Of a DNA stretch of 64,000 bases, positions 37,907 through 53,016 are shown piece after piece. How positions within the stretch are numbered: position 1 is the stretch's first letter; each line of letters starts with the position of its first letter. The notes under the pieces were generated by a model that saw only the letters and a list, made by a program, of their open reading frames with translations, did not search any database and had not been told where the DNA came from. Position numbers and translations under genes: made by a program. The stretch comes from Mycobacterium sherrisii (GTDB lineage: Bacteria; Actinomycetota; Actinomycetes; Mycobacteriales; Mycobacteriaceae), in contig NZ_LQPT01000093.1 in assembly GCF_002102355.1 (NCBI RefSeq), positions 62,001 to 126,000 on the forward strand, given 5' to 3'.

Positions 37907-38260
37907 CGAATTGCCTTCTGCGACAACCGATCAGCAAGATCGACAGCGAACTGCCGAGTCTGCTCGAATTGATAGGGCGCGAAGTGGGCCGGCGGGAAGG
38001 GCACGCCGAAGTAGCGATCGCGGTACCGGCCGCAGGTAGCTGATCTTCGACAAGCCGGACGCGCGCTGCCCGCGGTGCGTAGCGGCGATCGGCCGTTTGG
38101 CATACCGCCGGCGCGGGGTGCCCGTTCGGGGGCGGCCGGGTGACCTACGTCATGTCGACATGTGCGGCGCAGGCGGTATGGTACGGCTTGCTTAATGAAA
38201 ACGATTATCAATAAGCTTGGGCCGCCGACAACAGGTCGGGCCGGCGCTGAAAGGGAGTTC
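37907..38260. other. 354-bp intergenic region with a possible gene remnant and the first Zur-like operator
   Basis: No complete gene is seen. On the minus strand, about 37903-38040 reads as protein-like sequence without a plausible start (YRDRYFGVPFPPAHFAPYQF, then ADRLSQKAIR) and may be the C-terminal stub of a decayed gene that I cannot identify. The 3' part is AT-richer and holds the operator at 38192-38214, followed by the PPE leader. The local drop in GC around the operator is marked. Confidence 0.4.
38192..38214. promoter_or_regulatory. Putative Zur operator upstream of the PPE genes
   Basis: A 23-bp AT-rich imperfect palindrome with core TGAAAACGATTATCA, flanked by TTAA on the left and ATAA on the right. 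It lies 46 bp before the first PPE start codon. The form matches mycobacterial Zur (FurB) boxes, and a near copy precedes the zinc-transporter genes at 41123. Confidence 0.75.
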
Positions 38261-39466
38261 ATGCTGGATTTCGCGGCGTTGCCGCCGGAGGTCAACTCGG
38301 CCAGGATGTATGCCGGTCCCGGGTCGGCACCCATGCTGGCCGCCGCGGGGGCCTGGCGGGCGCTGGCCGCCGAGATGCGGTCCGCGGCAACAGATTACGA
38401 TTTGGTGCTGCGAGACTTGACCGGCGCCACCTGGCATGGGCCGTCGTCGGTGTCGATGTCGGCCGCCGCGGCGCCGTTTGTGGCCTGGCTGCAAGCCACG
38501 GCGGGCCAGGCCGAACAGACCGGGGTGCAGGCTACCGCGGCCGCGGCGGCTTTCGAGGCCGCGTACGCGATGACGGTCAGCCCGGCGGCCGTTGCGGCCA
38601 ATCGCACACTGCTGGCAAACCTGGTGGCCACCAATATTTTCGGGCAGAACACCCCGGCCATCGCGGCCACCGACGCCGAGTACGCCGAAATGTGGGCGCA
38701 AGATGTCGCAGCGATGACCGGCTACGCCAGCGCATCGAGATCCGCGTCGCAGATGACGCCGTTCACCTCGCCGAGCACGAACACCACCGCCGAGGGGGTG
38801 GCCGGACAGAACCAGGCCGTCGGTCAGGCGGCGAACACGGCCGCTGGCACTGCACAGTCATCGTTATCGGCCAACCCCACTTCGGCAGCGGGGGCAACGT
38901 CGGATGCCGGCGCGGCCACGCCGGGGTCGGCGGGTGATTTCCTGACGGGCCTGTTGGATGGGTCGAACGATACCGCGCTGGGCAGCTTCCTGAATAGCAA
39001 TTTCTTCAGCAACTCACTGCTGAACGGCTCGCTTGCCGGCGGACCGTTCAACCCGCAGACGATTGTTTCCACCGCGCAGGGCTTCAGTTTCCTTCAGACG
39101 GTTGCCACCACGCTCGGCGGCCTGGACGACTTCGCGGACGGGGCCGAAAGTGCCACCGTGAGTTTGTCGTCCAGCACGACGGAAGCAGCGGGTCTGACCG
39201 GTGCCGCGGCGGAGGTGGGTCGCGCGGACCTGGTGGGATCGATGTCGGTGCCACCGAGTTGGGCATCGGCAACCAACATCACGCCCAGTCAGACTGCAGT
39301 GCCCGTTGGTGGGCTCAGCGATATCGGTTCGGCCGCGGCGCCGGCCGCGGGAGGTCCCGGTGGCGTCGCGGGTCCGCTCGGCGGCAACGGCCGCAGGCTC
39401 CGCCGAGCCATTCCACGGTACGGATTTCGGCCGATCGTTATGCCACATCCGCCGGCCGCCGGTTGA
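38261..39466 (+). CDS. PPE-family protein, SVP subgroup (first of pair)
   Basis: A 401-residue PPE protein. The N-terminal PPE domain (about 1-175) opens [21 protein letters not shown] with the PPE residues at 8-10 and contains the WxG-type ATWHGPSS turn. The C-terminal region is Gly/Ala/Ser/Asn-rich and carries the SVP motif GSMSVPPSW at 326-334 and the terminal [16 protein letters not shown] proteins go out through ESX systems, and several act as outer-membrane solute channels (PPE51 and relatives). The start ATG at 38261 follows AAGGGAG. It is the first gene after a Zur-like operator; no PE partner gene is adjacent. A zinc-uptake role is inference. Confidence 0.92.
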
Positions 39467-39485
39467 GAAACCAGGAGAAGATGTC

Positions 39486-40697
39486 ATGCTGAATTTTGGG
39501 GCGATACCGCCGGAAATCATCTCGGCCAAAATGTACGCAGGTCCCGGATCGGGATCACTACTGGCGGCCGCGGCGGCGTGGAATGCGTTATCCGCTGAAT
39601 TACATTCGGCCGTCGGCAATTACGAATCAGTCATCACGTCGCTGGTCGCCGAAAACTGGCTGGGGCCGTCCGCGGAGAAGATGGCGGCGGCGGTCCAACC
39701 GTACCTGGCATGGCTGGCGGCAGCCGCCGTGCAGACCGAGCATGTCGGCGCTTCGGCCGCCGCCGCCGCGACAGCGTACGAGGCGGCGTTTGCCGCGACG
39801 GTCCCGCCCACGGTCATCTCGGCCAATCGGACCTTGCTGGCGAACCTGTTGGCGAGCAACCTGTTTGGCCAGAATGCCGGGGCGATCGCGGCCGCCAACG
39901 CCCAGTATGCCGAGATGTGGGCGCAAAACAGCGCCACGATGACCAGCTACGCGATCGCCGCGCGCGCGGCCGGTGACATGACGCCGTTCAGCCAGCCTCG
40001 GGCCGATACCGCCCAGGACGCCGCAGCCGGGCAGGCGGCCGCGGTCAACCAGGCCGGCAGCGCCGCCGGTGCCGCGGCGGCCCCTGCACCGACCGGCATC
40101 TGGTCGTGGCTCGGTCTAGCTCCCGGTTCGGACACCTCCACCACCGGGCTGGCCGGCGTCATGAACCTGTTCAGCAATTCCAACGAGAATCTCCTGGGCG
40201 CCTTCCTCAACAACAACAGCGTAGGCGGATTGTCGAACGCCTTCACTACCAACGGAATTCTGAATCCGACGACGTTCATCGATCCGGCAGCCACGGCCGC
40301 CGCGAATGGTGCCATCACAAGCGCGACCACCTCGGGGCTCGAAGATCTGGCGGCCGGGCTCGGCAATGTCGGCTTGGCGTCGTCGGTCGCGAAGCTGCCC
40401 GGTGCCGCCGCCACCGCGGGGTTGGGACAGGCGAGTTTGGTGGGGACCTTGTCCGTACCGACGACCTGGGCCGACACCGGGGCGACGGTCAGCACCGTAG
40501 CGGCGACGACGAAGGTGGGTGCCGCGGCGTACCACGGCTTCGGCGCCGCGACCCCGATGGTGATGGAAGGCGCAGGGGCGGTGGGCATGCCGGGGGTGCC
40601 GCTGGCCGGTATCCCGGGTTCCCCCGAGGACGAGTTCGCCGACCCGATCTACGGATTCCGCCCCCGCGTCATCGGACGCCCGCCCGCCGCAGGATAA
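39486..40697 (+). CDS. PPE-family protein, SVP subgroup (second of pair)
   Basis: A 403-residue paralogue of the preceding gene, starting 19 bp after its stop. It opens MLNFGAIPPEIISAKMYAGPG with PPE at 8-10, and has the WLGPSAEKMAAAVQPYLAWL turn, SVP motif GTLSVPTTW at 320-328 and terminal FRPRVIGRPPAAG. The N-terminal domains of the two are strongly alike and the C-terminal halves differ more, pointing to an old tandem duplication. The ATG at 39486 has AGGAGA upstream. The DUF732 gene follows 6 bp later, so the three genes probably form one Zur-controlled transcript. ESX export is expected from the family. Confidence 0.92.
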   Translation: MLNFGAIPPEIISAKMYAGPGSGSLLAAAAAWNALSAELHSAVGNYESVITSLVAENWLGPSAEKMAAAVQPYLAWLAAAAVQTEHVGASAAAAATAYEAAFAATVPPTVISANRTLLANLLASNLFGQNAGAIAAANAQYAEMWAQNSATMTSYAIAARAAGDMTPFSQPRADTAQDAAAGQAAAVNQAGSAAGAAAAPAPTGIWSWLGLAPGSDTSTTGLAGVMNLFSNSNENLLGAFLNNNSVGGLSNAFTTNGILNPTTFIDPAATAAANGAITSATTSGLEDLAAGLGNVGLASSVAKLPGAAATAGLGQASLVGTLSVPTTWADTGATVSTVAATTKVGAAAYHGFGAATPMVMEGAGAVGMPGVPLAGIPGSPEDEFADPIYGFRPRVIGRPPAAG

Positions 40698-40703
40698 CCG
40701 CAT

Positions 40704-41051
40704 ATGAGATTCGCACCAGGGCTCGCCGCCGTCGTCGCCTCGATTGGCCTGGCCGCCGCGGCACACGCCGACCCGGGCGACGAGGCCGACCAGGCATTCC
40801 TCGCCGCGCTCGCCGACGCACACATCACCTATCACGACCGCGAGCATGTGATCAAAGCCGGCCAAAAGGTCTGCGACTTAGCCAATTCCGGCGCGTCTGA
40901 GCTCGACATCATCCGCGACATCCGAGATCTCAACCCCGCCTTCACCATGACCAGCGCTGCCAGGTTTGCGAAAGCGGCCGCCAGCGCCTACTGCCCCGAC
41001 CGGCTGGCCGCCGACGGCGACGCCGCCAATGTCGACGGCCAGCCGGGCTGA
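40704..41051 (+). CDS. Small secreted DUF732 protein
   Basis: A 115-residue protein with a Sec signal peptide (MRFAPGLAAVVASIGLAAAAHA, cleavage likely after AHA) and a DUF732 domain. The domain is a helical bundle with the conserved DQAFLAALADAHI start and two cysteines, KVCDLANSG and SAYCPDR, placed to form a disulfide. DUF732 proteins are common, unexplained mycobacterial exported proteins. It starts 6 bp after the second PPE gene. Its place in a putative zinc regulon suggests a periplasmic or cell-wall accessory role, inferred from context only. Confidence 0.88.
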   Translation: MRFAPGLAAVVASIGLAAAAHADPGDEADQAFLAALADAHITYHDREHVIKAGQKVCDLANSGASELDIIRDIRDLNPAFTMTSAARFAKAAASAYCPDRLAADGDAANVDGQPG

Positions 41052-41122
41052 CCATCGGCCTTGTCACCGGTGCCCGGACCGGTCGAGTGCAAAGCTCGCG
41101 GCGGCGTGCTACCGTCGCCATG

Positions 41123-41145
41123 TTAATGGAAATCATTTTCAATAA
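41123..41145. promoter_or_regulatory. Putative Zur operator upstream of the zinc ABC genes
   Basis: A 23-bp imperfect palindrome with core TGGAAATCATTTTCA and the same TTAA/ATAA flanks as the box at 38192. It ends 15 bp before the first possible start codon of the binding-protein gene and 3 bp before the AGGGGAG ribosome site, so a bound repressor would cover the transcription start. Confidence 0.8.
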
Positions 41146-41160
41146 AGTCAGGGGAGTGAT

Positions 41161-42114
41161 GTGATGGCAGGTCGGCGGCGCAGCGCGGCATGGGTGGCGG
41201 TGAACACGGTCGCGGTGCTGTTCGGCGTTATCGCGTGCGGCGGTGGCAATCCGGCGCAATCGGGGCCCACCGGCACGAGCGGCCCCGGGGCCGCGTCCAA
41301 GTTGGCGGTGGTCGCCACCATCAACGCGTGGGGCAGCATCGCGGCTCAGCTCGGTGGCGATCGCGTGCAGGAGACCAGCATCATCACCAATCCCAACACC
41401 GACCCGCACAGCTACGAGCCGTCGGCTGCCGACGCCCGCGCCGTCTCGGATGCCACGGTCGTCATCGAAAACGGCATCGGCTACGACGCCTGGGCCGACA
41501 AAATGCTTGCCTCCGAATCAAATTCGAAGCACACCGTGGTCAACGTCGGCGACACCGTCGGGGTCCCGGCGGGCGGGAACCCGCACCAGTGGTATTCGCC
41601 CGACTCGGTGACCAAGGTTGCCGGGGCGATCACCGCCGCATACAAAAAGGCGGACCCTGCCGACTCGGCCTATTTCGACCAGCGCAACACCGAGTTCCTC
41701 AACCAAACCTTGGCGACCTACCACGGTCTGATCGCCACCATCAAAGCCAAATACGCCGGGACACCGGTCGGCGCCAGCGAATCGATTTTCGCTCCGCTCT
41801 CGGATGCGTTGGGGCTCAACCTGATCACCCCACCGGAATTTCTGAAGGCAATCAGCGAGGGCACGGATCCCTCGCCGGCGGACAAGGCCACCATCGACCA
41901 CCAGATCGCCACCAAGGCCGTCAGGGTGTACGTGTTCAACACTCAAAACGCCACACCGGATGTGCAGGCCCAAGTCGACGCGGCCAAAAACCAGGGCATC
42001 CGCGTCACCACCGTGACCGAGACCTTGTCGCCGGAAAACGCATCGTTCCAAGATTGGCAGTCCAGCCAACTGTCCGCGCTCTCCGACGCTCTACACGGCG
42101 CGACGGGCAAGTAG
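41161..42114 (+). CDS. Zinc/manganese-type ABC substrate-binding lipoprotein (ZnuA-like)
   Basis: A 317-residue cluster A-I (TroA/ZnuA) binding protein. The lipoprotein signal is VAVLFGVIAC with the lipobox Cys at 26. Metal-ligand histidines are placed as in the family: H83 in NTDPHSYEPS, H142 in NPHQWYSP and H188 in TYHGLIA. A C-terminal Asp/Glu ligand is less certain. There is no long His-rich loop, unlike E. coli ZnuA. The start may be GTG 41161 or ATG 41164, the latter better spaced from AGGGGAG. It is the first gene of an operon with an ATPase and two permeases. Zinc is the likely substrate given the Zur-like operator and repressor; manganese cannot be excluded. Confidence 0.9.
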   Translation: MMAGRRRSAAWVAVNTVAVLFGVIACGGGNPAQSGPTGTSGPGAASKLAVVATINAWGSIAAQLGGDRVQETSIITNPNTDPHSYEPSAADARAVSDATVVIENGIGYDAWADKMLASESNSKHTVVNVGDTVGVPAGGNPHQWYSPDSVTKVAGAITAAYKKADPADSAYFDQRNTEFLNQTLATYHGLIATIKAKYAGTPVGASESIFAPLSDALGLNLITPPEFLKAISEGTDPSPADKATIDHQIATKAVRVYVFNTQNATPDVQAQVDAAKNQGIRVTTVTETLSPENASFQDWQSSQLSALSDALHGATGK

Positions 42115-42972
42115 ATGACCGCCGTGGGGTCCGAGCAGACCGTGGTCCGGATGCGCGCCGCGTCGGCCGTGGTGGGCGGCAAGACCGTGTGGTCGGAGGT
42201 GTCCCTGGAGCTCGGCGCCGGAGAATTCGTCGCGGTGCTCGGACCGAATGGCTGCGGTAAATCGACGCTATTGAAATCCCTGATCGGCCTGACTCCGACG
42301 CGCGGATTGGTTGAGGTGCTGGGCGCGCGGCCCGGCCGGCGCGCGAACCTGATCGGGTACCTGCCGCAACGGCGCGCGTTCGACGCCAGCGTGCGGATCC
42401 GCGGCATCGACGTGGTGTCCCTGGGACTGGACGGCGCACGCTGGGGCACACCCGTGCCCGGGCTGGCCCGCCTGCTGGCCCCGCGACGTTCGGCGCGACG
42501 GCGGCAACGGCTCGACTACGTCATCGACATGGTCGGCGCCGCTGACTATGCCACGCGTCCGATCGGCCGCTGCTCCGGTGGCGAACAACAGCGGCTGCTG
42601 ATCGCGCAGGCACTGATCCGCCGGCCCAAACTGTTGTTGCTCGACGAACCGCTGGACAGTCTGGACGTGCCCAGCCAGGCCGGGATCTGCGCCTTGGTAG
42701 GCGACGTCTGCCGCCGCGAGAATGTCGCGGTGGTCATGGTCGCCCACGACGTCAACCCGATCCTGCCCTACCTCGACCGCGTCATCTATCTTGCCGCCGG
42801 TTCGGCGATGATCGGAACACCGGAAGAGGTGATCACCGCCGATCAACTGTCCGCGCTCTACGGCATGCCGATCGACGTGCTGCACGACCGGGCGGGGCAT
42901 TTGTTCGTCGTCGGCCAGCCCGGTGCCGTTGGACCGGCCGCAGCCACCCAGATCGCCGGAGCGCCTGCATGA
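42115..42972 (+). CDS. Zinc ABC transporter ATP-binding protein (ZnuC-like)
   Basis: A 285-residue ATPase of metal-chelate type. Walker A GPNGCGKST is at 43-51, the Q-loop in LPQRRAFD, the signature CSGGEQQ from residue 153, Walker B LLLLDEP at 173-179 and the H-loop in VMVAHDVNP. A Pro/Ala-rich C-terminal extension (GQPGAVGPAAATQIAGAPA) follows. The start ATG directly abuts the binding-protein stop (TAGATG). The TGA stop overlaps the first permease start (ATGA), so coupling is tight. Confidence 0.93.
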   Translation: MTAVGSEQTVVRMRAASAVVGGKTVWSEVSLELGAGEFVAVLGPNGCGKSTLLKSLIGLTPTRGLVEVLGARPGRRANLIGYLPQRRAFDASVRIRGIDVVSLGLDGARWGTPVPGLARLLAPRRSARRRQRLDYVIDMVGAADYATRPIGRCSGGEQQRLLIAQALIRRPKLLLLDEPLDSLDVPSQAGICALVGDVCRRENVAVVMVAHDVNPILPYLDRVIYLAAGSAMIGTPEEVITADQLSALYGMPIDVLHDRAGHLFVVGQPGAVGPAAATQIAGAPA

Positions 42973-43886
42973 TTGCGCAGCCGGGCTGGAACGTGATCGC
43001 CGACGTGCAGCAGATGTGGGTCTATCCGTTCATGGTGACCGCCTTCCGGGCCGGCACCGTGGTCGCCGTGCTGGCCGGTGTCGTCGGATGGATCATGGTG
43101 CTGCGCAAGGAAAGCTTCGCCGGACACACCCTGGCCATCGTCGGCTTCCCCGGGGCCGCCGCCGCGGCGTGGCTGGGCATCGCCACCGGCTACGGCTACT
43201 TCGCCGCCAGCGTCGGCGCTGCCGCGGTAATCGCGTTGCTGCCCAGGTCAACTCGCGCGGGAACGCTGAGCAGCCTCAGCGAGGAATCCGCCGGCATCGG
43301 CACGATCCAGGCCCTGGCACTGGCGACCGGGTTTTTGTTCGTCAGCCTGTATCACGGATTCCTGTCGGGGTTGACCAACCTGCTGTTCGGCGCCATCACC
43401 GGCGTCACCACCGGGCAGCTCGGCGCGCTGATGATCGCCGCGCTGGTGTGCCTGGTGGTGCTGGCCGCGATCGGGCGGCCGCTGCTGTGGGCCTCGATCG
43501 ACCCCGACGCGGCCACCGCCAACGGCGTCCCCACCCGCGGCGTCGCCATGGTGTTCCTGCTGGTGCTCGGTGCTGCCACCGCCGGCGCCAGCCAAATCAC
43601 GGGCAGCCTCCTGGTTTTCGTGTTGTTAGTGGCCCCGCCCGCGGCCGCGTTCCAACTGACCGCCCGGCCCGTGACGGGAATCGTGCTGTCCATCGTGCTG
43701 GCGGTCACGGTGACCTGGCTGGGCATCGGGTGCGCCTTCTACTCGCCCTATCCAATCGGATTCTGGGTCAGCAGTTTCGCATTCGCCGGCTATCTGCTGG
43801 CCGTCGGTTATCGCACGGCCGCCGAGCGGGCGCTGCTGCGGGTCGACCGGCAGGGCATCCCGGCACGGCCGGTGGTGACGGCATGA
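42969..43886 (+). CDS. Zinc ABC transporter permease 1 (ZnuB-like)
   Basis: A 305-residue ABC-3 family membrane protein with about eight helices, first of two permeases. Signatures: FRAGTVVAVLAGVVGWIMVLRKESFAGHTLAIVGFPGAAAAAWLG around the coupling loop and TNLLFGAITGVTTGQLGALMIAAL in the core. The ABC-3 EAA-like region GVPTRGVAMVFLLVLGAATAGASQITGSLLVFVLLVAPPAAA follows. ATGA overlaps occur at both ends, linking ATPase, permease 1 and permease 2. It probably pairs with permease 2 as a heterodimer. Confidence 0.92.
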   Translation: MIAQPGWNVIADVQQMWVYPFMVTAFRAGTVVAVLAGVVGWIMVLRKESFAGHTLAIVGFPGAAAAAWLGIATGYGYFAASVGAAAVIALLPRSTRAGTLSSLSEESAGIGTIQALALATGFLFVSLYHGFLSGLTNLLFGAITGVTTGQLGALMIAALVCLVVLAAIGRPLLWASIDPDAATANGVPTRGVAMVFLLVLGAATAGASQITGSLLVFVLLVAPPAAAFQLTARPVTGIVLSIVLAVTVTWLGIGCAFYSPYPIGFWVSSFAFAGYLLAVGYRTAAERALLRVDRQGIPARPVVTA

Positions 43887-44890
43887 GCAAGATCGACGTG
43901 TACGTCGGGGCGTCGGACCCACTGACCGGCGCGGCGAACATGCTGTCGCATCCGTTCATCGAGCACGCCCTGGTGGCCGGGACCGCGGTGGCCGCGGTGT
44001 GCGGGCTGGCCGGCTACTTCCTCGTGCTGCGCGGCCAGGTCTTCGCCGGGGACGCGCAGGGACACGTCGCCTACTCGGGCGCCATGGCGGCGCTGGTGGC
44101 CGGGATCGATCCACGGGTGGGACTGTTCGCGTCGACGATCATCGCGGCGGTCCTGCTGGCCGCGATGAGCCGACTCGGTGCCGACGACGTCGCGATCGGG
44201 TCGTTTTTCTCCTGGATACTCGGACTGGGTGCGCTGTTTTTGACCTACTACACCAGCCACGGCAGCGGCCACAACGGCACGGCGAACGTAAATGTCTTGT
44301 TCGGCAGCATCTTTGGGATCAACGACGACGCCCGCACCTTCGCGGTCGTCGGCGCGGCGGCGTTGACCGCGGTGTTGGTCACGATCGCCCGCCCATTGCT
44401 GTTCGCCACCATCGATCCGGGCATCGCCCGGGCTGCCGGCGTGCCGACCCGACTGCTGAGCACGACCTTTTTGATCGTCGTCGGAATCACCGTCGCCGAA
44501 GCCACCCAGATCATCGGCACCCTCGTCGTCCTCGGTCTGCTCGCCGCCCCGGCCGCCGCGGCCGCCCGGCTGACCAATCATCCCTGGCGGGCGTTCTGGC
44601 TGTCCGCGCTGCTGGCCGCCGCCGCGGTCTGGATCGGCGTCGCCGTCGCCTATGCCGTTCCGGCGGCCCCGGCCACCTTCACCATCATGAGCACCGCCGC
44701 CCTCATCTACCTGCTCACCGCCGTCGTCGGTGCCCGCGACCGTCGGGGCTCGTACCGGCCGGCGGCCTTGCCACACAACACATCCGAGGAGCACAACAAT
44801 GCCGTCGTCGCGGCTGCTACATCGCTCGCGCATGACCGCCCAGCAACGAGCCGTGCTCGAGCTGCTGCAGCGCAGCGACCGTTTCCGTAG
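43883..44890 (+). CDS. Zinc ABC transporter permease 2 (ZnuB-like)
   Basis: A second ABC-3 permease, 335 residues. FLVLRGQVFAGDAQGHVAYSGAMAALVAG is followed by NVLFGSIFGINDDARTFAVVGAAALTAVL and GVPTRLLSTTFLIVVGITVAEATQIIGTLVVLGLLAAPAAAA, parallel to permease 1. The start ATG at 43883 overlaps permease 1 by four bases. The hydrophilic C-terminal 45 residues (from about RDRRGSYRPA) overlap the start of the Zur-like gene by 92 bp and may be a read-through tail. Two different permeases in one operon suggest an obligate heterodimer, as known for some metal ABC importers. Confidence 0.9.
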   Translation: MSKIDVYVGASDPLTGAANMLSHPFIEHALVAGTAVAAVCGLAGYFLVLRGQVFAGDAQGHVAYSGAMAALVAGIDPRVGLFASTIIAAVLLAAMSRLGADDVAIGSFFSWILGLGALFLTYYTSHGSGHNGTANVNVLFGSIFGINDDARTFAVVGAAALTAVLVTIARPLLFATIDPGIARAAGVPTRLLSTTFLIVVGITVAEATQIIGTLVVLGLLAAPAAAAARLTNHPWRAFWLSALLAAAAVWIGVAVAYAVPAAPATFTIMSTAALIYLLTAVVGARDRRGSYRPAALPHNTSEEHNNAVVAAATSLAHDRPATSRARAAAAQRPFP

Positions 44891-45212
44891 CGCCCAACAG
44901 CTGCATCTCGAGCTCCGTCACGACGACGGCGTTCGGATCGGGCTGGTGACCGTGTACCGGATCCTGCACGCGTTCGCCGACCAGGACATCGTGGAAACCC
45001 AGCGCGCCGAAGACGGTGAGATGCTGTATCGGCTACGCACCGTGTCCGGGCATCGCCACTACTTGCTGTGCCGCCAGTGCGGGTTCGCGATCGGGTTCAC
45101 CGTCGACGACGTCGAATGCCTCACCACCCAACTGGCCCGGCAACACCACTTCACCGGGGTCGCCCACCAGATCGACTTCTACGGCACCTGCCCACAATGC
45201 GTTGACACCTGA
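44799..45212 (+). CDS. Fur-family zinc repressor (Zur-like)
   Basis: A 137-residue Fur-family regulator. Winged helix: TAQQRAVLELLQRSDRFRSAQQLHLELR and GLVTVYRILHAF. The structural zinc site is C91-x2-C94 and C131-x2-C134 (CRQCG and TCPQC), and the regulatory ligands include H85 and H87 (SGHRHYLL) and the QHH pair near 116. It resembles mycobacterial FurB/Zur but is linked to a transporter operon rather than to the usual smtB-furB pair, so it is likely a second, dedicated Zur. The ATG at 44799 has GAGGAG upstream; an internal ATG at 44832 would avoid most of the overlap with permease 2. It is expected to bind the two boxes at 38192 and 41123. Confidence 0.88.
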   Translation: MPSSRLLHRSRMTAQQRAVLELLQRSDRFRSAQQLHLELRHDDGVRIGLVTVYRILHAFADQDIVETQRAEDGEMLYRLRTVSGHRHYLLCRQCGFAIGFTVDDVECLTTQLARQHHFTGVAHQIDFYGTCPQCVDT

Positions 45213-45228
45213 GGCGACGCGCCGGTGT

Positions 45229-46404
45229 TCAGTGGTGGTGGTGTCCGCCGGGTTCGGGTTCGGGGGAGCCGCCCATCATCCGCAGCATCGGCAGCCCGCC
45301 GGAGGTGACGAAGCGGGCCACCAGCACGGCCCCGATCGCCAGGAACACGATGTTCAGCCAGGTGGTGTAATTCCACGAGACCGCCGCCTCCATGACGGTG
45401 GCGTTGCGGTGGTGGGGTATGAGATCCGTTGCGCCGAACAGCAATTCGATAGCGTAGCCGGCGCCGACCATGGCGAGATAGAAGGTTGCCAGGATCGTCA
45501 GCATCATCCTGGTGCCGTAGTACTTCCGGTAGATGTTCAGGATCGGCAGGATGATCAGGTCGGCGAAGATGAACGCGACCACACCGCCGAAGCTGATGCC
45601 GCCGTTCCACAGCACCGCGGCCAGCGGCACGTTCCCGATCGAGCAGACGAACGACACGATCGCCACGACCGGGCCGACGATCGGGCCCCACAGCGCCGCC
45701 GCACCGGGATGGTTGGCGAAAAAGAAACTCTGCCAAAATGATTCGGGAACCCACGCCGCGATGGCGCCGGCGATCAACAGGCCCAGCACCAGATCGCGCA
45801 CGATCGCCAACCACTCCATCACGAACACGTGCGACACCGAGGTGAAGCCCTCGGCGGAGAACAACCGCTGCCGAAACGATCCGTCCCGCTTGATCGACAT
45901 GTCCATCGCGGCGTGGCCTTCCATCGAACCGGCGATGCCGCGCTCGGCCTGGGCGCGGGCGGCGTCGACCAGCCGGGAGGGCACGAACATCCGGAACAGC
46001 AGCGCCAGCGCCACGATCATGATCGGGCCCCCGACGAACTCCGCGGCGGTGAACTGCCAGCCCATCAACAACGCCAGGATGATGCCCAGTTCGATGACCA
46101 GGTTGGTGGAGCCGATCTCGAACGCCATCGCGGCGGTGAAGTTGGCGCCCTTGCGGAACAGCGACCGGGCCAGCGCCACCGCGGCGTACGAACACGACGA
46201 CGACGCCGCGCCCAGCCCGGCGGCCACGGCCAGCGTGCGGGGCCGGTCGTCGCCGATCAGATTCACGATCGTCGATCGGCGTACCACCGCCTGCACCACT
46301 GCCGAGAGCAAAAAGCCCAGGATCAGCGCCCAGGTGATCTCCCACGTCATCGACCCGGCCAAGGTCAAGGCGTGGCCCAGGGCCGCTGGCGCTTTGCTCG
46401 TCAC
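45229..46404 (-). CDS. Rv2963-like permease (UPF0718/DUF318) with C-terminal His tail
   Basis: A 391-residue membrane protein with about eight to ten helices, of the predicted permease family that includes arsenic permease ArsP. Conserved cysteine motifs: AASSSCSYAAVALARSLF and VSFVCSIGNVPLAAVLWNGG in the two repeats, each followed by a GxNFTAAMAFxxGSTNL- or FADLIILPI-type helix. The extreme C-terminus is EPGGHHHH, a possible metal ligand. The start is taken as GTG 46402-46404 with GGAGA five bases upstream; an ATG at 46527 would add a non-coding-like leader. The syntenic counterpart is Rv2963, near coaD. The stop is 16 bp from the zur stop (convergent). The substrate is unknown; metal or metalloid efflux is a guess. 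Confidence 0.85.
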   Translation of the reverse strand: MTSKAPAALGHALTLAGSMTWEITWALILGFLLSAVVQAVVRRSTIVNLIGDDRPRTLAVAAGLGAASSSCSYAAVALARSLFRKGANFTAAMAFEIGSTNLVIELGIILALLMGWQFTAAEFVGGPIMIVALALLFRMFVPSRLVDAARAQAERGIAGSMEGHAAMDMSIKRDGSFRQRLFSAEGFTSVSHVFVMEWLAIVRDLVLGLLIAGAIAAWVPESFWQSFFFANHPGAAALWGPIVGPVVAIVSFVCSIGNVPLAAVLWNGGISFGGVVAFIFADLIILPILNIYRKYYGTRMMLTILATFYLAMVGAGYAIELLFGATDLIPHHRNATVMEAAVSWNYTTWLNIVFLAIGAVLVARFVTSGGLPMLRMMGGSPEPEPGGHHHH

Positions 46405-46701
46405 TTTGATCTCCGCGGTGGGTTGCGTGCTGCGGTGATTATGGCCCACCGGGGCCGGGCGCGTCCGTTCGCGGTGCTCGGTGCCGGTTGTGCACCGCGC
46501 CGGCGGGCGCGGGAACAATTCATCCATTCCCGCGCCGCCGCGAAGCCCGGCGTCTAAGCTGGGGCGGTTCGAGTATTTCCGTGTCGATACCCGGATTAGT
46601 GGTTCTGCGAGCGCTGCTACGGGGGTTCCGTTGCGCGTATCGACATCTGGTGGTGCTTGGGGAGGCGCCGCCGGCAGAGCTGAGACGAGGTATGAACGGC
46701 G
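46405..46701. other. Divergent promoter region of the permease and mas
   Basis: 297 bp between the GTG of the permease (minus strand) and the ATG of mas (plus strand). It is expected to hold both promoters. I see no hairpin, repeat or Zur-like palindrome, and no confident sigma-factor hexamers. fadD28, which lies upstream of mas in M. tuberculosis, is absent. Confidence 0.5.
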
Positions 46702-49700
46702 ATGCAGTCGCGTGTCACGCCCATTGCGGTCATCGGGATGGGCTGCCGGCTCCCCGGCGGTATCGACTCACCCGACGCCTTCTGGCGGGCGCTGCTGCGC
46801 GGCGACGACCTGGTGACCGAGATCCCGCCCGACCGGTGGGATGTCGAGGACCACTACGACCCCGAGCGCGGTGTCCCGGATCGGTCGGTGTCGCGCTGGG
46901 GCGGCTTCATCGACGACGTCGGCGGCTTCGACGCCGCCTTCTTCGGTTTCGGCGAACGCGAGGCGACGGCCATCGATCCGCAGCACCGGTTGCTGCTGGA
47001 GACGTCCTGGGAGGCGATCGAGCACGCCGGGATCGTGCCGGCGTCGATGAGCGGCTCGCGCACTGGCGTGTTCATCGGGTTGTGCCAGCAGGACTACACG
47101 CTGATGACCGGCGATGCGGGCGTGCTGGGCGACGCCTACGGCTACACCTGCACGCCGTTCAGCATGGCCTCCGGACGCATCGCCTACGGGCTGGGTTTGC
47201 AGGGACCGGCCATCACGATGGACACCTCGTGCTCGTCGGGTCTGCTCGCCGTGCACCTGGCCTGCCGGAGCCTGGACAGCGGCGAAAGCGACCTGGCGTT
47301 GGCCGGGGGCGCGATGCTGGTGCTGGACCCGCGGGTGTCAACGTCGGCGTCGGGCCAGGGCATGCTCTCACCGACGGGTCGCTGCCACACGTTCGACGTC
47401 GCCGCCGACGGTTTCGTGCGCTCCGATGGTTGCGCCGTGGTGATGCTCAAGCGGCTGCCCGATGCCGAGCGCGACGGCGACCGGATCCTGGCGGTGGTGC
47501 GCGGCACCGCGGCCAACCAGGACGGCCGGTCCGAGACCATCACCACGCCATCGCGCACCGCCCAGGCCACGGTGTACCGCGCGGCATTGGAAGCGGCCGG
47601 GGTCGATCCGTCGACGGTGGGCGTGGTGGAAGCGCACGGCACCGGGACCCCGAAGGGTGACCCACTCGAATTCGCCAGCCTGGCAGAGGTTTACGGCGCC
47701 GCCGGTAACCGGGTCGCGCTGGGGTCGGCCAAGAGCAACGTCGGCCACACCGAAGCGGCCGCCGGTGCCGTCGGGTTGGTGAAGGCCGTCCTCGAGTTAC
47801 GCCACGGCCTGGTGCCGCCGATGGCGCACTTCACCCGCCTGCCCGACGAACTCGCCCGCATCGACACCGGATTGTTTGTGCCGCAAGAGGTTACGCCGTG
47901 GCCGGACAAAGGCGACGCGCGGGGCCCGGTGCCGCGACGGGCCGGGGTGACGTCGTTCGGGATGTCGGGCACCAACGTGCACGCCGTGCTCGAGCAGGCG
48001 CCCGACGCCTCCGGCGCGCCCGCCGAGCGTCCCGCGCCCGGCGCGCTGGTCGTTCCGCTGTCGTCGACCTCGGCGGGCGAGCTGCGCCGAACCGCGGGGC
48101 GGCTGGCGGACTGGCTGGCCGCCCAGGAGTGCGGCGTGCGGCCCGTCGACCTGGCCTACACGCTGGCGCGGCGGCGCGGGCACCGCACCGTGCGCACCGC
48201 GGTGGTCGCCGGGAACAGCGTCGACGATCTGGTTGATAAGCTCCGCGAAATCGCTTGCAGCCAAACCCCTTACCCGCCGGCGGCCGGGCACGACGACCGC
48301 GGGCCGGTGTGGATCTTCTCCGGGCAGGGCTCGCAGTGGGCGGCGATGGGTGCCGAGCTTCTGGCCAACGAGCCGGCGTTCGCGGCGACCGTCGCGCGGG
48401 CCGAGCCGCTGATTGCGGCGGAGTCGGGGTTTTCGGTCACCGAGGCGATGTCGGCAGCGGAGACGGTGACCGGCATCGGGCGGGTGCAACCCACGCTGTT
48501 CGCGTTCCAAGTCGCGATGGCCGAGGCGATGCGGTGCCACGGGGTGCGGCCCGGCGCGGTCATCGGCCACTCGATGGGCGAGATCGCCGCGGCCGTCGTC
48601 GCCGGTGCGCTGTCGCTACAAGACGGCGTCAAGGTGATCTGCCGACGCTCGGAACTGATGTCCCGGGTGGCCGGTGCCGGGGCGATGGCCACGGTCGAGC
48701 TGCCCGCCCGGCAGGTGCGCGACGAGCTGGCGACCCGCGGCATCGCCGACGTCGTGGTGTCGGTGATCGCCTCGCCGAACTCCGTCGTGATCGGCGGTGC
48801 CGCCCACCGGGTTCGCGATCTGGTCGCCGGGTGGGAAGCCCGCGACGTGATGGCGCGCGAGGTGGCCGTGGACGTCGCGTCGCACTCGTCCCAGGTCGAC
48901 CCGATCCTGGCCGAGCTGGCCGAGCGGCTCGCCGACCTGGCGCCGAGCGCGCCGGTGGTGCCGTGTTACTCTGCGACGCTTGATGATCCGCGCGTGGCGC
49001 CGACCTTCGACGCCGGGTACTGGGTGAACAACCTGCGCGGTTCGGTGAAGTTCGCCGCCGCCGTGCAGGCCGCGTTGGACGACGGGCACCGGGTGTTTGC
49101 CGAGCCGTCGCCGCACCCGCTGCTGACCCGCGCGGTGGAACAGACCGCCGCCGCGGCCGACATCGTCGTGCAAGCGCTGGCCGGCCTGCGCCGCGAGCAG
49201 CCCGTTCCGCATGGGCTGCTGGGGTTTCTGGGCGACCTCTACAGTGCCGGTGCCGCAATCGATTTCGCCGCGCTGTATCCGGCGGGCCGGCTGGTGGATG
49301 CGCCGCTGCCGACCTGGACCCGGCAGCGGCTGCTAGTCGAGTCCGACGGGTCGACCGGGCGCGGGGAGCCCACCGTTGCGGTGCATCCGCTGCTGGGTGC
49401 GCATGTCCGGCTGCCCGAGGAGCCGGAGCGGCACGCCTGGCAGGGCGAGATCGGCACCGCGACGCTGCCCTGGCTGGCCGACCATCGGGTGAACGGCGTC
49501 GCGGTGTTCCCGGGCGCGGGCTTTTGCGAGATGGCCCTGGCCGGCGCGGCCCAGATCTTCGGGCCGGACGCCGAGGTGCGCGATGTCCGGTTCGAGCAGA
49601 TGCTGCTGTTGGACGACGAAACCCCGGTCAGCGCAGTGGCTTCGATCAAGGACGCCGGCGTCGCCGCGTTCGCGGTGGACACCGATCGCGACGGTGAACG

Positions 49701-52700
49701 GTCCCGCAGCGCGACGGCGACGTTGTGCCGCGCCGCCGACGCGGGCGCCGAGGAACAACCGCAGCGCCGCGACATCGCGGCCCTGCTGGCCACCCACCCG
49801 CAGCGGACGGACGGCGCCGCGCTGCGGCGCGCCTTTGCCGAGCGCGGCGTCGATTACGGCCCGGCCTTTGCCGGCCTGGTGTCGGCTTGTAACGCAGCAG
49901 GCAAGAGCCGCACCGTCGTTGCCGAGGTGGAGCTGCCCAGGGCGGTGCGCTCGCAGCAGGGCGGTTACGGCGTACATCCGGCGCTGCTGGACGCCTGCTT
50001 CCAGACGGTGCTGGCCCACCCTGCCATCAAGGACGCGGCGCACGTCGGCCTGCTGCTACCGGTGAGTGTGGCGCGGTTGCGCCGCTACGCCCCGGTCCGG
50101 GGCACGCGCTACTGCCAGGCGCGCATCGTGTCGGCGAGCGAGTCGGCGCTGCAGGTGGACCTGGACCTGCTCGACGAGACCGGTGCCGTCGTGCTGGCCG
50201 TCGAAGGTCTGCGCATGACGGCCGGTGGCGGCGCCGCCGACCAGCTGATGACCGAGCGACTGTTGACCGTCGAGTGGCAGCGCCAGACCTTGCAGCCGGT
50301 GCCCGAGCGGCCGGTGGGCAGCTGGCTGTTGATCACCCCCGCCGAGTCCGATCTGCTGGGGTCCCGTCTCGCCGACGCCCTGAAATCCCTTGCCGCCCAA
50401 CCCTGCACACTGATCTGGCCACGGCAGGCCGACCATGCCGCGAAGACCGCGGAGCTGTCCGCGGTGGTGCGCGGTGGACTCGATGGGGTGGTGATCGTGT
50501 GCCCGCCGCCCGGCGGTCCGCCCGACGAGCCGGGGCTGCTGGCGGGCCGCGAGCAGGTGCGCCACCTGGTCCGCATGATCCGCGAACTGCCGGAGATGTC
50601 GGCCGAGCCGCCGCGGCTGTACGTCCTGACCCGACGGGCGCAACTCGTGCGGGGCGATGACGATCCCAACCTGGTACAGGCCGGGCTGCGCGGCCTGCTG
50701 CGCGTGGTCGGCGCGGAGAATCCGCAACTGCGCACCACCCAGATCGACCTGGCCGCCGAGGACGACATCGAGCTGGTCGCCCAGGAACTGCTGTCGGGTA
50801 CGCCCGAGGACGAGACGGCCTGGCGAGGTGGCCAGTGGTACACGGCGCGGCTGCGCTGCACCCCGCTGGCGGCCGACGAACGCCGGACCACCACGGTCCG
50901 CCACGAGACCGAGCAGCTGCGCGCGGTCGTGCGCCACCCCGGCGACCTGCAGACCCTGGAGTTCGTCGCACTCGACCGCACCGCGCCCCGCGCCGGGGAG
51001 GTGGAGATCGCGGTCGACGCCGCCAGCGTCAACTTCGCCGAAGTGATTGCGGCTCTTGGTCGTTACCCGGATCTGGAGGGTCGGCCGCATCAATTGGGTT
51101 TCGACGTGGGTGGTGTGGTGGCCCGGGTTGGTGACGGCGTCACCGGCCTGCACGTCGGCGACCGGGTGGGCGGCTTCGCCGGATTCGGCAACGGCAGCTG
51201 GGGCACGTTCGTCACCTGCGATGCCCGATTGGTGGTCGGCTTGCCGGCCGCCGTGACCACCGTGCAGGCCGCCGCGGCGGCCACGGCGTACGGCACCGCC
51301 TGGTACGGGCTGTGCGAGCTGGCCCGGATCTGCGCCGAGGACAAGGTGCTGATCCACTCCGGCACCGGTGGCGTCGGTCAGGCCGCGATCGCGATCGCGC
51401 GGCGGGCAGGCGCCGACGTTTTCGCCACCGCGGGCAGCCCTGAGCGTCGAGAGTTGTTGCAGCGCATGGGAATTGAACACGTCTACGACTCGCGCAGCAC
51501 CGCGTTCGCCGAGCAGATCCGCCGCGACACCGACGGGTACGGCGTCGACATCGTGCTGAACTCGCTGACCGGGGCGGCCCAGCAGGCCGGGATCGAACTG
51601 CTGGCCTACGGCGGAAGGTTCGTGGAGATCGGCAAGCGGGACATCTACGCCGACGCGCGGCTGGGCCTGTTCCCGTTCCGCCGCAACCTGTCGTTCTACG
51701 CCGTCGACCTGGCACTGCTCACGCACACCCATCCGGGCCGGGTGCAACAGTTGCTGCGCACGCTCTACCAGCGGATCGCGGACGGCGAGCTGCCGGTGCC
51801 GACCTGCACCGAATATCCGCTGTCGGAGGCGGCGACGGCGATCCGGGTGATGAGCGGCGCCGAGCACACCGGCAAGCTGGTGCTCACGGTGCCCCGCGCC
51901 GGAAGGACCGACGCGGTGCTGCTGCCGGAGCGGGCGCCGGTGTTCCGCAACGACGGCGCCTACATCGTCACCGGGGGCCTGGGCGGTCTGGGCCTGTTCC
52001 TGGCCGGCCAGATGGCCTCGCGCAACGGCAAGGCGGGCTGCGGCCGCATCGTGCTGACCGCCCGGTCCGCCCCAACTCCCAAGGCGCGCCAGGCGATCGA
52101 GCGCCTACGCGCGAACGGCACCGATGTGGTGGTGCACAGCGGCAACATCGCGGAACCCGAGACGGCCGCCGCGGTGGTGGCCGCGGCCACCGCGACCGGG
52201 TTGCCGTTGCGCGGGGTGCTGCATGCCGCCGCCGTCGTCGAGGACGCCGTGCTGGCCAACATCACCGACGAGCTGATCGACAAGGACTGGGCGCCAAAGG
52301 TCAACGGGGTGTGGAACTTACATCACGCGACCGCCGGGCAGCCGCTGGACTGGTTCTGCTCCTTCTCCTCGGTGGCCGCGCTGTTCGGCTCGGCCGGGCA
52401 GGGCGCCTACGCCGCGGCCTCGAGCTGGCTGGACGCGTTCACTCGCTGGCGGCGCAGCCAGGGTCTGCCGGCGACCGCGATCGCCTGGGGGGCGTGGGGT
52501 GAGATCGGCCGCGCCACCTTCTTGGCCGCCGGCGGGCGCACGACGATGATCGCGCCGGACGAGGGGGCCCGGGCGTTCGAGACGTTGTTGCGCTACGACC
52601 GCACCTACACCGGCTACGTCCCGACGACGGGGGCGCCCTGGCTGGCCGCGCTGGTGGCGCGCAGCCCGTTCGCCGAGGCCTTCCGAGACTCCGGCGATCA

Positions 52701-53016
52701 GCACGGCGCCGAAAGCTCGGCGCTGCGAGACGAATTGCGCGCCCTGGCGCCCGACGAGTGGCCGGCCCGGCTGCGCCGCCTGATCGCCGACCAGACCGGC
52801 CTGATCCTGCGCCGCGCCATCGACCCGGACCGGCCGTTCGCCGAGCACGGCCTGGACTCGCTGGGCAATCTGGAACTGCGCACCCGCATCGAAGCCGAGA
52901 CCGGGATCCGCCTGACGCCCAAAACCATCGCCACCTACAACTCGGCGCGCGCGTTGGGGGCGCACCTGTCGGAGGCGCTGGCCGCCGAAGAGGCACACCT
53001 GGCGGCCCCGGGCTAG
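46702..53016 (+). CDS. mas: Mycocerosic acid synthase-type iterative polyketide synthase
   Basis: A 2104-residue type I PKS that elongates fatty acyl starters with methylmalonyl-CoA to multimethyl-branched mycocerosates, later esterified on phthiocerol (M. tuberculosis Mas 2111). Domains in order: KS (active Cys177, His312), AT (GHSMG with Ser624; VASH at 725-728, the methylmalonyl-type motif), DH (His928 in [12 protein letters not shown]), ER ([10 protein letters not shown] from about 1555), KR (TGGLGGLG from about 1756, YAAASSW) and ACP (GLDSL, Ser2053). There is no thioesterase, as for Mas. Convergent placement facing papA5 supports Mas rather than a Pks5-type paralogue, though the KS differs from Mtb Mas in places. 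The stop shares a CTAG with the E1 gene. Confidence 0.88.

Follow-up and report, generated by a model that had tools for sequence, protein, structure and literature searches.

An exchangeable PPE-PPE-DUF732 cassette ahead of a predicted zinc importer in Mycobacterium sherrisii

Here, we analyse a locus of Mycobacterium sherrisii in which two PPE genes and a small DUF732 gene (the cassette) lie directly upstream of genes for a ZnuABC-type importer and for a Fur-family protein, called Zur2 below. The locus belongs to a 64,000-nucleotide stretch of contig NZ_LQPT01000093.1 (RefSeq assembly GCF_002102355.1, positions 62,001 to 126,000), which we call the window and to which coordinates refer unless a locus is named; C, G and L numbers are our labels for contigs, genomes and loci. 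The pe20 locus of M. tuberculosis combines an M-box with genes for PE20, PPE31, PPE32, PPE33, Rv1810 and MgtC, and growth in low Mg2+ and at low pH depends on PE20-PPE31 (PMC12810186). A review links PPE proteins to the uptake of magnesium (PE20-PPE31) and calcium (PE15-PPE20), zinc being unmentioned in its main text (PMC12209268), and PPE64 was reported to form channels (PMC12802285). The passage of zinc across the mycomembrane has been called unexplored, with MspD proposed for this task in M. smegmatis (PMC13098993, 2026). In M. avium ssp. paratuberculosis, the ZnGI region (LSP14/LSP15), induced by zinc starvation, carries the Zur-boxed PPE genes MAP3737 and MAP3765 and, next to a Mn/Zn ABC importer, MAP3773c, a gene of the Fur family (PMC4298942).

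The M. sherrisii locus resembles the pe20 locus in that PPE genes stand behind a divalent-cation sensor, but it has a Zur box and not an M-box, contains neither a PE nor an MgtC gene, and precedes znuABC. The window copy ends in a DUF732 gene, and Rv1810 is likewise a DUF732 protein. With ZnGI it shares the Fur-family gene next to an ABC importer; however, LSP15-like loci, which we named by gene order and not by comparison with MAP sequences, encode ZnuA proteins only 36-40% identical to that of the window, and the available part of PMC4298942 reports for ZnGI neither a PPE-PPE-DUF732 set joined to a znu operon nor a link to an M-box. MspD, a Zur-regulated outer-membrane protein near zinc ABC importers, follows a similar two-membrane logic (PMC13098993, PMC7174638), but it is an Msp porin of a fast grower and its family is unrelated to PPE proteins. 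In the literature searched, from which subscription journals mostly fell outside and of which some papers were available in part, we found no description of a cassette exchange like this one, nor of PPE gene pairs within znuABC loci. What appears to be new is the nature of the PPE part: an exchangeable cassette that also occurs at a locus under a Mg2+-sensing riboswitch.

All genes of the locus lie on the forward strand. Box 1, a 23-bp palindrome (TTAATGAAAACGATTATCAATAA, 38192..38214, without assigned strand), stands about 47 nt ahead of PPE1 (38261..39466, 401 aa), which is followed after 19 nt by PPE2 (39486..40697, 403 aa), both having the PF00823 (PPE) and PPE-SVP domains, and after a further 6 nt by the DUF732 gene (40704..41051), assigned by a domain match, whose product has an N-terminus that reads like a signal peptide. 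Then come 71 nt and box 2 (TTAATGGAAATCATTTTCAATAA, 41123..41145, likewise without strand), preceding the gene for a ZnuA/TroA-type substrate-binding lipoprotein (41164..42114, PF01297). The latter abuts the gene for a ZnuC-type ABC ATPase (42115..42972), and the following genes overlap: two ABC-3 permeases (42969..43886 and 43883..44890) and, sharing 92 bp with the second of them, zur2 (44799..45212, PF01475). The gaps suggest two transcription units. This gene order had been given by an earlier annotation made from the letters alone (the sequence-only reading), and the domain matches bear it out; all parts of a ZnuABC-type importer are present, namely a PF01297 binding protein, an ABC ATPase and ABC-3 permease. 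The AlphaFold model of the DUF732 protein is a bundle of five helices (mean predicted local distance difference test score 74.7) and found no match in the PDB at E below 0.001. A plasmid collection gave no match to positions 38150-45250.

The two near-identical palindromes at 38192 and 41123, already picked out in the sequence-only reading, agree at 19 of 23 positions. The core Zur pattern has four matches in the window, which are these boxes on both strands, against a mean of 0.11 in shuffled sequence. We built a weight matrix from the 19 Zur boxes published for M. avium paratuberculosis (PMC4298942, Table 2), which themselves score 28-43; box 1 reached 39.4 and box 2 40.3, which is the range of the published sites. 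Applied to 342 kb of reversed control sequence, the matrix gave a single match of at least 18, reaching 20, and none of at least 24. That both predicted promoters carry genuine Zur-type boxes is supported. Each box is preceded by a TANNNT element, which we take to be the mycobacterial -10 consensus: 38177..38182 (forward strand), 9 nt 5' of box 1, and 41110..41115 (forward strand), 7 nt 5' of box 2. Of 16 boxes picked from nine loci, one per promoter, all 16 have such an element no more than 14 nt upstream, in comparison to 1.3% of random 30-mers of the window; thus, the Zur operator most likely overlaps the transcription start.

The sequence-only reading had seen a self-contained regulon under one local repressor, taken to be a Zur of its own. 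The genome (5.56 Mb, 128 contigs) has five FUR-family matches, and its canonical Zur is encoded on contig C101 by a gene that overlaps an smtB-like gene (SmtB read by eye); that smtB-zur pair sits there, whereas zur2 follows znu genes. Among boxes scoring at least 20 in the fetched stretches of this genome, the same box precedes cobW genes (C15, C19, C23 and C89), alternative ribosomal-protein genes read by eye as rpmE2 and rpmG, an ArsP_1 permease gene, a type VII cluster that is led by EccA, contains a PE-PPE pair and reads as ESX-3, a second znuA on C28 (with a moderate score of 24.3) and two more PPE genes (C70:2162-2185, 29.2, locus L029; C111:2198-2221, 24.9, locus L030). Box-preceded genes occur on at least seven other contigs. 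Because the same box precedes so many genes elsewhere, the regulon is not a private one, and the locus appears to be a two-promoter zinc-starvation locus inside a genome-wide Zur regulon, neither of its boxes being its own. Of the earlier interpretation, a putatively zinc-controlled PPE pair beside an importer stands; the private repressor does not.

A second copy of the cassette was found by protein search in the same genome. Contig C37 carries PPE1', PPE2' and DUF732' in the same order, with 69%, 70% and 69% identity to the window proteins. An M-box riboswitch (RF00380, 148.8 bits) precedes this copy, and eccA, eccE and mycosin genes lie upstream of it. The M-box is absent from the stretch with the window locus (L040), five other zinc loci and L206, i.e., from all seven cassette-bearing zinc loci. 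We then surveyed 396 congeneric genomes, own included, with cut-offs of E 1e-110 for PPE2-type proteins and E 1e-90 for window-type ZnuA; only the four or five best first-look candidates per genome were scored, so all counts are lower bounds. (Labels G198-G202 share coordinates with G224, G257, G281, G276 and G240.) PPE2-type proteins occupy at least 44 places in 31 genomes. Seven of these are directly upstream of a window-type znuA and 37 are elsewhere, and an M-box lies ahead of 30 of the 37 (23 of the 30 non-zinc loci in L200-L230 and all seven loci fetched earlier). That every copy away from znuA stands behind an M-box held for the first eight and failed in this larger set. None of the first eight M-box loci has a Zur box scoring 18 or more, and in two of the M-box copies (L187 and L174) no MgtC gene was recognised after DUF732 by eye, no domain search being made. 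The seven places with neither an M-box nor znuA are L201, L203, L205, L208, L210, L211 and L220. The first six of these form a single clade, a third location of the cassette without an M-box or a Zur box of at least 20; in the two that were read (L201 and L208) its neighbours are a DUF347 membrane protein and a two-component system, the DUF347 protein and the response regulator being confirmed by Pfam in L208.

Window-type ZnuA was found in at least 15 of the 396 genomes. In seven of these (G000, G224, G240, G257, G276, G281 and G284) the cassette stands directly upstream of znuA, and in two (G103 and G129) a different PPE pair does so, with two boxes. The co-occurrence of PPE pair and znuABC that the sequence-only reading had proposed to look for was thus found, and conservation of the pair beside znuABC is supported. 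Counterparts among 58 loci come from M. montefiorense (L105), M. vulneris (L107), M. colombiense (L124), M. sp. 1100029.7 (L104) and M. sp. 1465703.0 (L108), with a degraded one in M. tilburgii (L145). M. interjectum and Nocardia have znu genes without the PPE-PPE-DUF732 cassette.

Separate trees of PPE1 and PPE2 agree that the copies do not sort into a zinc-locus clade and an M-box clade. A tree in which the six zinc-locus copies stay together was rejected by the approximately unbiased test (p 0.0008 for PPE1 and 0.0003 for PPE2; M. tilburgii rows were left out, and DUF732 alone resolves little). In a 41-row tree with seven zinc-locus copies, the starred branches force at least four changes for these copies, and the copies at the third location fall into one clade. 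Both analyses reject a single origin for the zinc-locus copies. Genome G284 has a zinc-locus and an M-box cassette that share 99% identity along 2.83 kb. The match starts some 40 nt ahead of PPE1, ends shortly after DUF732 and has sharp borders, the flanks being unrelated. Since the copies mix in the trees and the G284 identity ends so sharply, the cassette is a unit of exchange between loci, be it by gene conversion or by fresh insertion, and the direction of each exchange is a presumed one. The ratios of nonsynonymous to synonymous substitution rates (dN/dS) are 0.17-0.24 for PPE1 and 0.21-0.27 for PPE2, and the range across PPE1, PPE2 and DUF732 is 0.17-0.32 (dS 0.77-1.11), i.e., purifying selection. 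The cassette genes of the window are therefore kept functional.

The region between box 1 and PPE1 differs between relatives. In G284 (locus L206) it contains an intact cobW gene of 399 aa, in M. colombiense a remnant consisting of a broken cobW start (E 9.8e-7) and in M. vulneris a remnant of 11 aa (E 0.014); no remnant was found there in the window. The same region holds an intact PE gene in M. vulneris (L107, 959-1258, PF00934) and a decayed one in M. colombiense. As the sequence-only reading had noted, no PE gene is adjacent to the window cassette, and none was found anywhere in the window by tblastn. The queries, the same in all PE searches, were seven of the 13 PE matches in the genome. 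M-box loci have a PE gene in 13 of 23 cases in L200-L230 and in three of seven earlier ones (L174, L186-L191). In M-box locus L207, a very short PE-like frame with its middle missing was seen by eye before PPE1 (about 2200-2280). The PE protein of M. vulneris is 79% identical to one encoded on contig C86 of the present genome, which is a candidate partner in trans. The PE gene, intact or decayed, in two relatives is a likely explanation for the missing partner.

The Fur-family protein of the locus is 41-48% identical to canonical Zur proteins. It has the FUR domain, a C-site of C,C,C,C, so that both CxxC zinc sites announced by the sequence-only reading are present, and a D-site of H,H,E,H. 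We take the Zur M-site to be D62, C76, H81 and H83 in M. tuberculosis numbering, assigning the sites after the M. tuberculosis and Streptomyces structures. At these positions the window protein has E,R,R,Y, and a second alignment puts Thr at the Cys position. Among 39 Zur2 rows, some of them from the same genome fetched twice, both CxxC motifs are kept in 37 (the exceptions being two truncated rows of a single genome), the D-site in 36 and the D,C,H,H M-site in none, in comparison to six of six mycobacterial canonical rows; Tyr stands at the last M-site position in 33 rows, and L108 (E,C,H,H) comes nearest to the canonical site. Because the M-site residues are missing, the local protein is a conserved Zur paralogue and not the genome's Zur. 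In 198 congeneric genomes, 196 of which gave a match at E 1e-15, the paralogue (at least 50% identity) occurs in 22, with 23 genes (two in G134). Besides the window, znu genes lie beside zur2 in 19 of 22 fetched loci, the exceptions being L090, L091 and L094.

The probable relative MAP3773c resembles Zur2 in gene context, metal sites, binding to a Zur-like box and znu derepression on deletion, but it is mainly an iron regulator in print and was matched to Zur2 by its description, not by sequence. According to these papers, its chromatin immunoprecipitation (ChIP) motif is SRYAATGAAAATSRTTWTC and Mn2+ aids its binding to the mptA box (PMC7192006); it has two metal sites, a structural zinc and one formed by His85, His87, His123 and Glu107 (PMC9405291); and MAP3774c-3776c, MAP0487c and MAP3737 increase under iron starvation when its gene is deleted (PMC11026511). 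On the basis of this published work, the Zur2 family is likely a second repressor that acts on Zur boxes and has a changed sensor. Loci L116 and L232 have a zur2-like gene also upstream of znuA, two such genes flanking the znu operon in L116. In other zur2 loci (L086-L089, L091, L093, L094 and L096), PPE genes and Zur boxes are frequent within the same 20 kb; most of their ZnuA proteins are 36-40% identical to that of the window, L091 and L094 have no znu genes, and several contain pairs of boxes spaced by about 55 bp, as is seen at cobW genes.

On balance, we lean slightly towards the reading that the PPE pair is a portable passage for divalent cations, placed here under Zur and feeding ZnuABC. 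When zinc is present, canonical Zur would occupy both boxes over the promoters, and during zinc starvation both promoters would fire, promoter 1 driving PPE-PPE-DUF732 and promoter 2 driving znuA-C-B-B together with zur2. The PPE pair, joined by a PE protein supplied in trans, would be exported by a type VII system (presumably ESX-5) and would make the mycomembrane permeable to divalent cations, the cargo being set by regulation and not by the protein: Mg2+ behind the M-box, Zn2+ behind Zur. ZnuABC would move zinc across the inner membrane, and Zur2, made together with the importer and devoid of the M-site, may act as a second repressor on the same boxes when metal returns. Such a two-membrane zinc route is plausible, and the M-box paralogue adds weight to it.

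Several points weigh against a Zur-controlled cation passage. Six of the 15 genomes with window-type ZnuA have no PPE pair upstream (G132, G134, G066, G157, G374 and G341, the last judged from only about 2 kb of upstream sequence), and the degraded M. tilburgii locus has no Zur box of at least 18 upstream of PPE1. Zur-like boxes of at least 20 occur at three of the 23 later M-box loci (L225, 26.3; L227, 20.8; L230, 20.8), hinting that some M-box loci may be under dual control; the two controls are not strictly exclusive. These boxes lie between the M-box and the PE gene (L225 1868-1891, L227 1866-1889, L230 1942-1965). Exchange can be plain gene conversion without any shared function. The evidence on Mg2+ concerns PE20-PPE31, which we liken to the window proteins by gene arrangement and which are only putative orthologues of them, and expression of pe20-ppe31 in M. 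smegmatis left a Mg-dependent biofilm visibly unaltered (PMC12810186). MspA-family porins are encoded in 27 of 30 genomes checked, own included; lack of porins therefore does not explain the pairing, and the idea that the PPE-znu pairing marks porin-less genomes is rejected. Zinc specificity of the importer is not certain either: H82, H141 and E206 of ZnuA, which we take to be metal ligands, are invariant in six window-type sequences, and at what is presumably the third-ligand position this Glu replaces the His of PDB 8svc. The same Glu is found in the genome's other ZnuA, behind the Zur-type box scoring 24.3, and in the other full-length rows aligned. Reading ZnuA as a manganese importer on account of the Glu was dropped because the Zur-boxed second ZnuA shares it. 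As for the second repressor, the published work on MAP3773c describes ChIP peaks that are mostly intragenic, with none significant at MAP3739c (PMC7192006), the promoter of which has a predicted Zur box, and its authors study the protein as an iron/Mn2+ regulator (PMC7192006, PMC11026511).

The PPE pair could also be controlled by Zur and yet carry no zinc, having a surface, general-permeability or other-nutrient role while ZnuABC is fed by porins or other PPE proteins. The roles of PPE proteins are varied, this genome has an MspA-family porin of its own as well as the two other Zur-boxed PPE genes, its znu locus contains no PE partner, and the Zur-regulated MspD serves zinc in M. smegmatis (PMC13098993); however, the usual regulator of the cassette is the M-box, which responds to another divalent cation, and the cassette reached znuA, or was exchanged there, more than once, which is unexpected of a pure surface role. 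We regard this explanation as rather unlikely, though it deserves to be kept in mind. It seems clearly less probable that the cassette is a passenger without a zinc role, inserted into a Zur-controlled cobW-znu locus and levelled with the M-box copy by gene conversion. The graded loss of cobW, from intact in L206 through remnants in L124 and L107 to none found in the window, and the near identity of the G284 copies fit such a history; against it stand the purifying selection on PPE1, PPE2 and DUF732 and the retention, in six genomes with cobW lost or broken, of the box and its -10-like element at a varied distance from PPE1.

An import of a zinc-metallophore complex instead of free Zn2+ would agree with the link of PPE proteins to mycobactin-bound and haem iron, drawn in PMC12209268 and PMC12802285, and with a large open reading frame at 46702-53016, read as a type-I polyketide synthase. 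The putative synthase, however, lies beyond a convergent ArsP_1 gene and no metallophore cluster is established. Moreover, ZnuA is a protein of the TroA/ZnuA-type cluster (PF01297), members of which normally bind the bare ion. We consider this import improbable. Least probable by far, to the point of being hardly tenable, is a self-contained regulon with the local Fur protein alone controlling both boxes: its linkage to znu genes and the derepression of its own znu operon on deletion of the probable relative MAP3773c (PMC11026511) speak for it, but the canonical Zur gene lies behind an SmtB-like gene and the box recurs on at least seven other contigs.

Next to the locus, the ArsP_1 permease gene (45229..46527, reverse strand) is convergent with zur2. 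It also neighbours the locus in three relatives (L104, L105 and, in pieces, L145), and its product reaches 60 of 300 bits, far under the cut-off, with the NCBIfam Cu/Zn efflux SO_0444 model. A second ArsP_1 permease near zinc-regulated genes is encoded on C19 (L001 470-1465), behind a Zur-like box (22.5).

More tentatively than the reading of a Zur-controlled cation passage, and with doubt prevailing, we put forward a broader view in which PPE-PPE-DUF732 would serve the mycomembrane as a general and exchangeable passage for divalent cations. The regulator and the inner-membrane partner would determine the ion: Mg2+ with the M-box, Zn2+ with the Zur box and ZnuABC, and possibly a third setting in the separate clade that has neither M-box nor Zur box. 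In the same view, Zur2 would represent a second class of actinobacterial zinc-locus repressor working without the M-site. The locus is a concrete candidate for the passage of zinc across the mycomembrane in mycobacteria by means of PPE proteins, and it offers two Zur-type repressors for one box. Since G284 has near-identical cassettes behind a Mg2+ switch and behind a Zur box, a natural experiment is at hand in which the cargo specificity of PPE proteins is directly testable. For the PPE families, these findings suggest an evolution by the movement of whole cassettes between metal-specific promoters.

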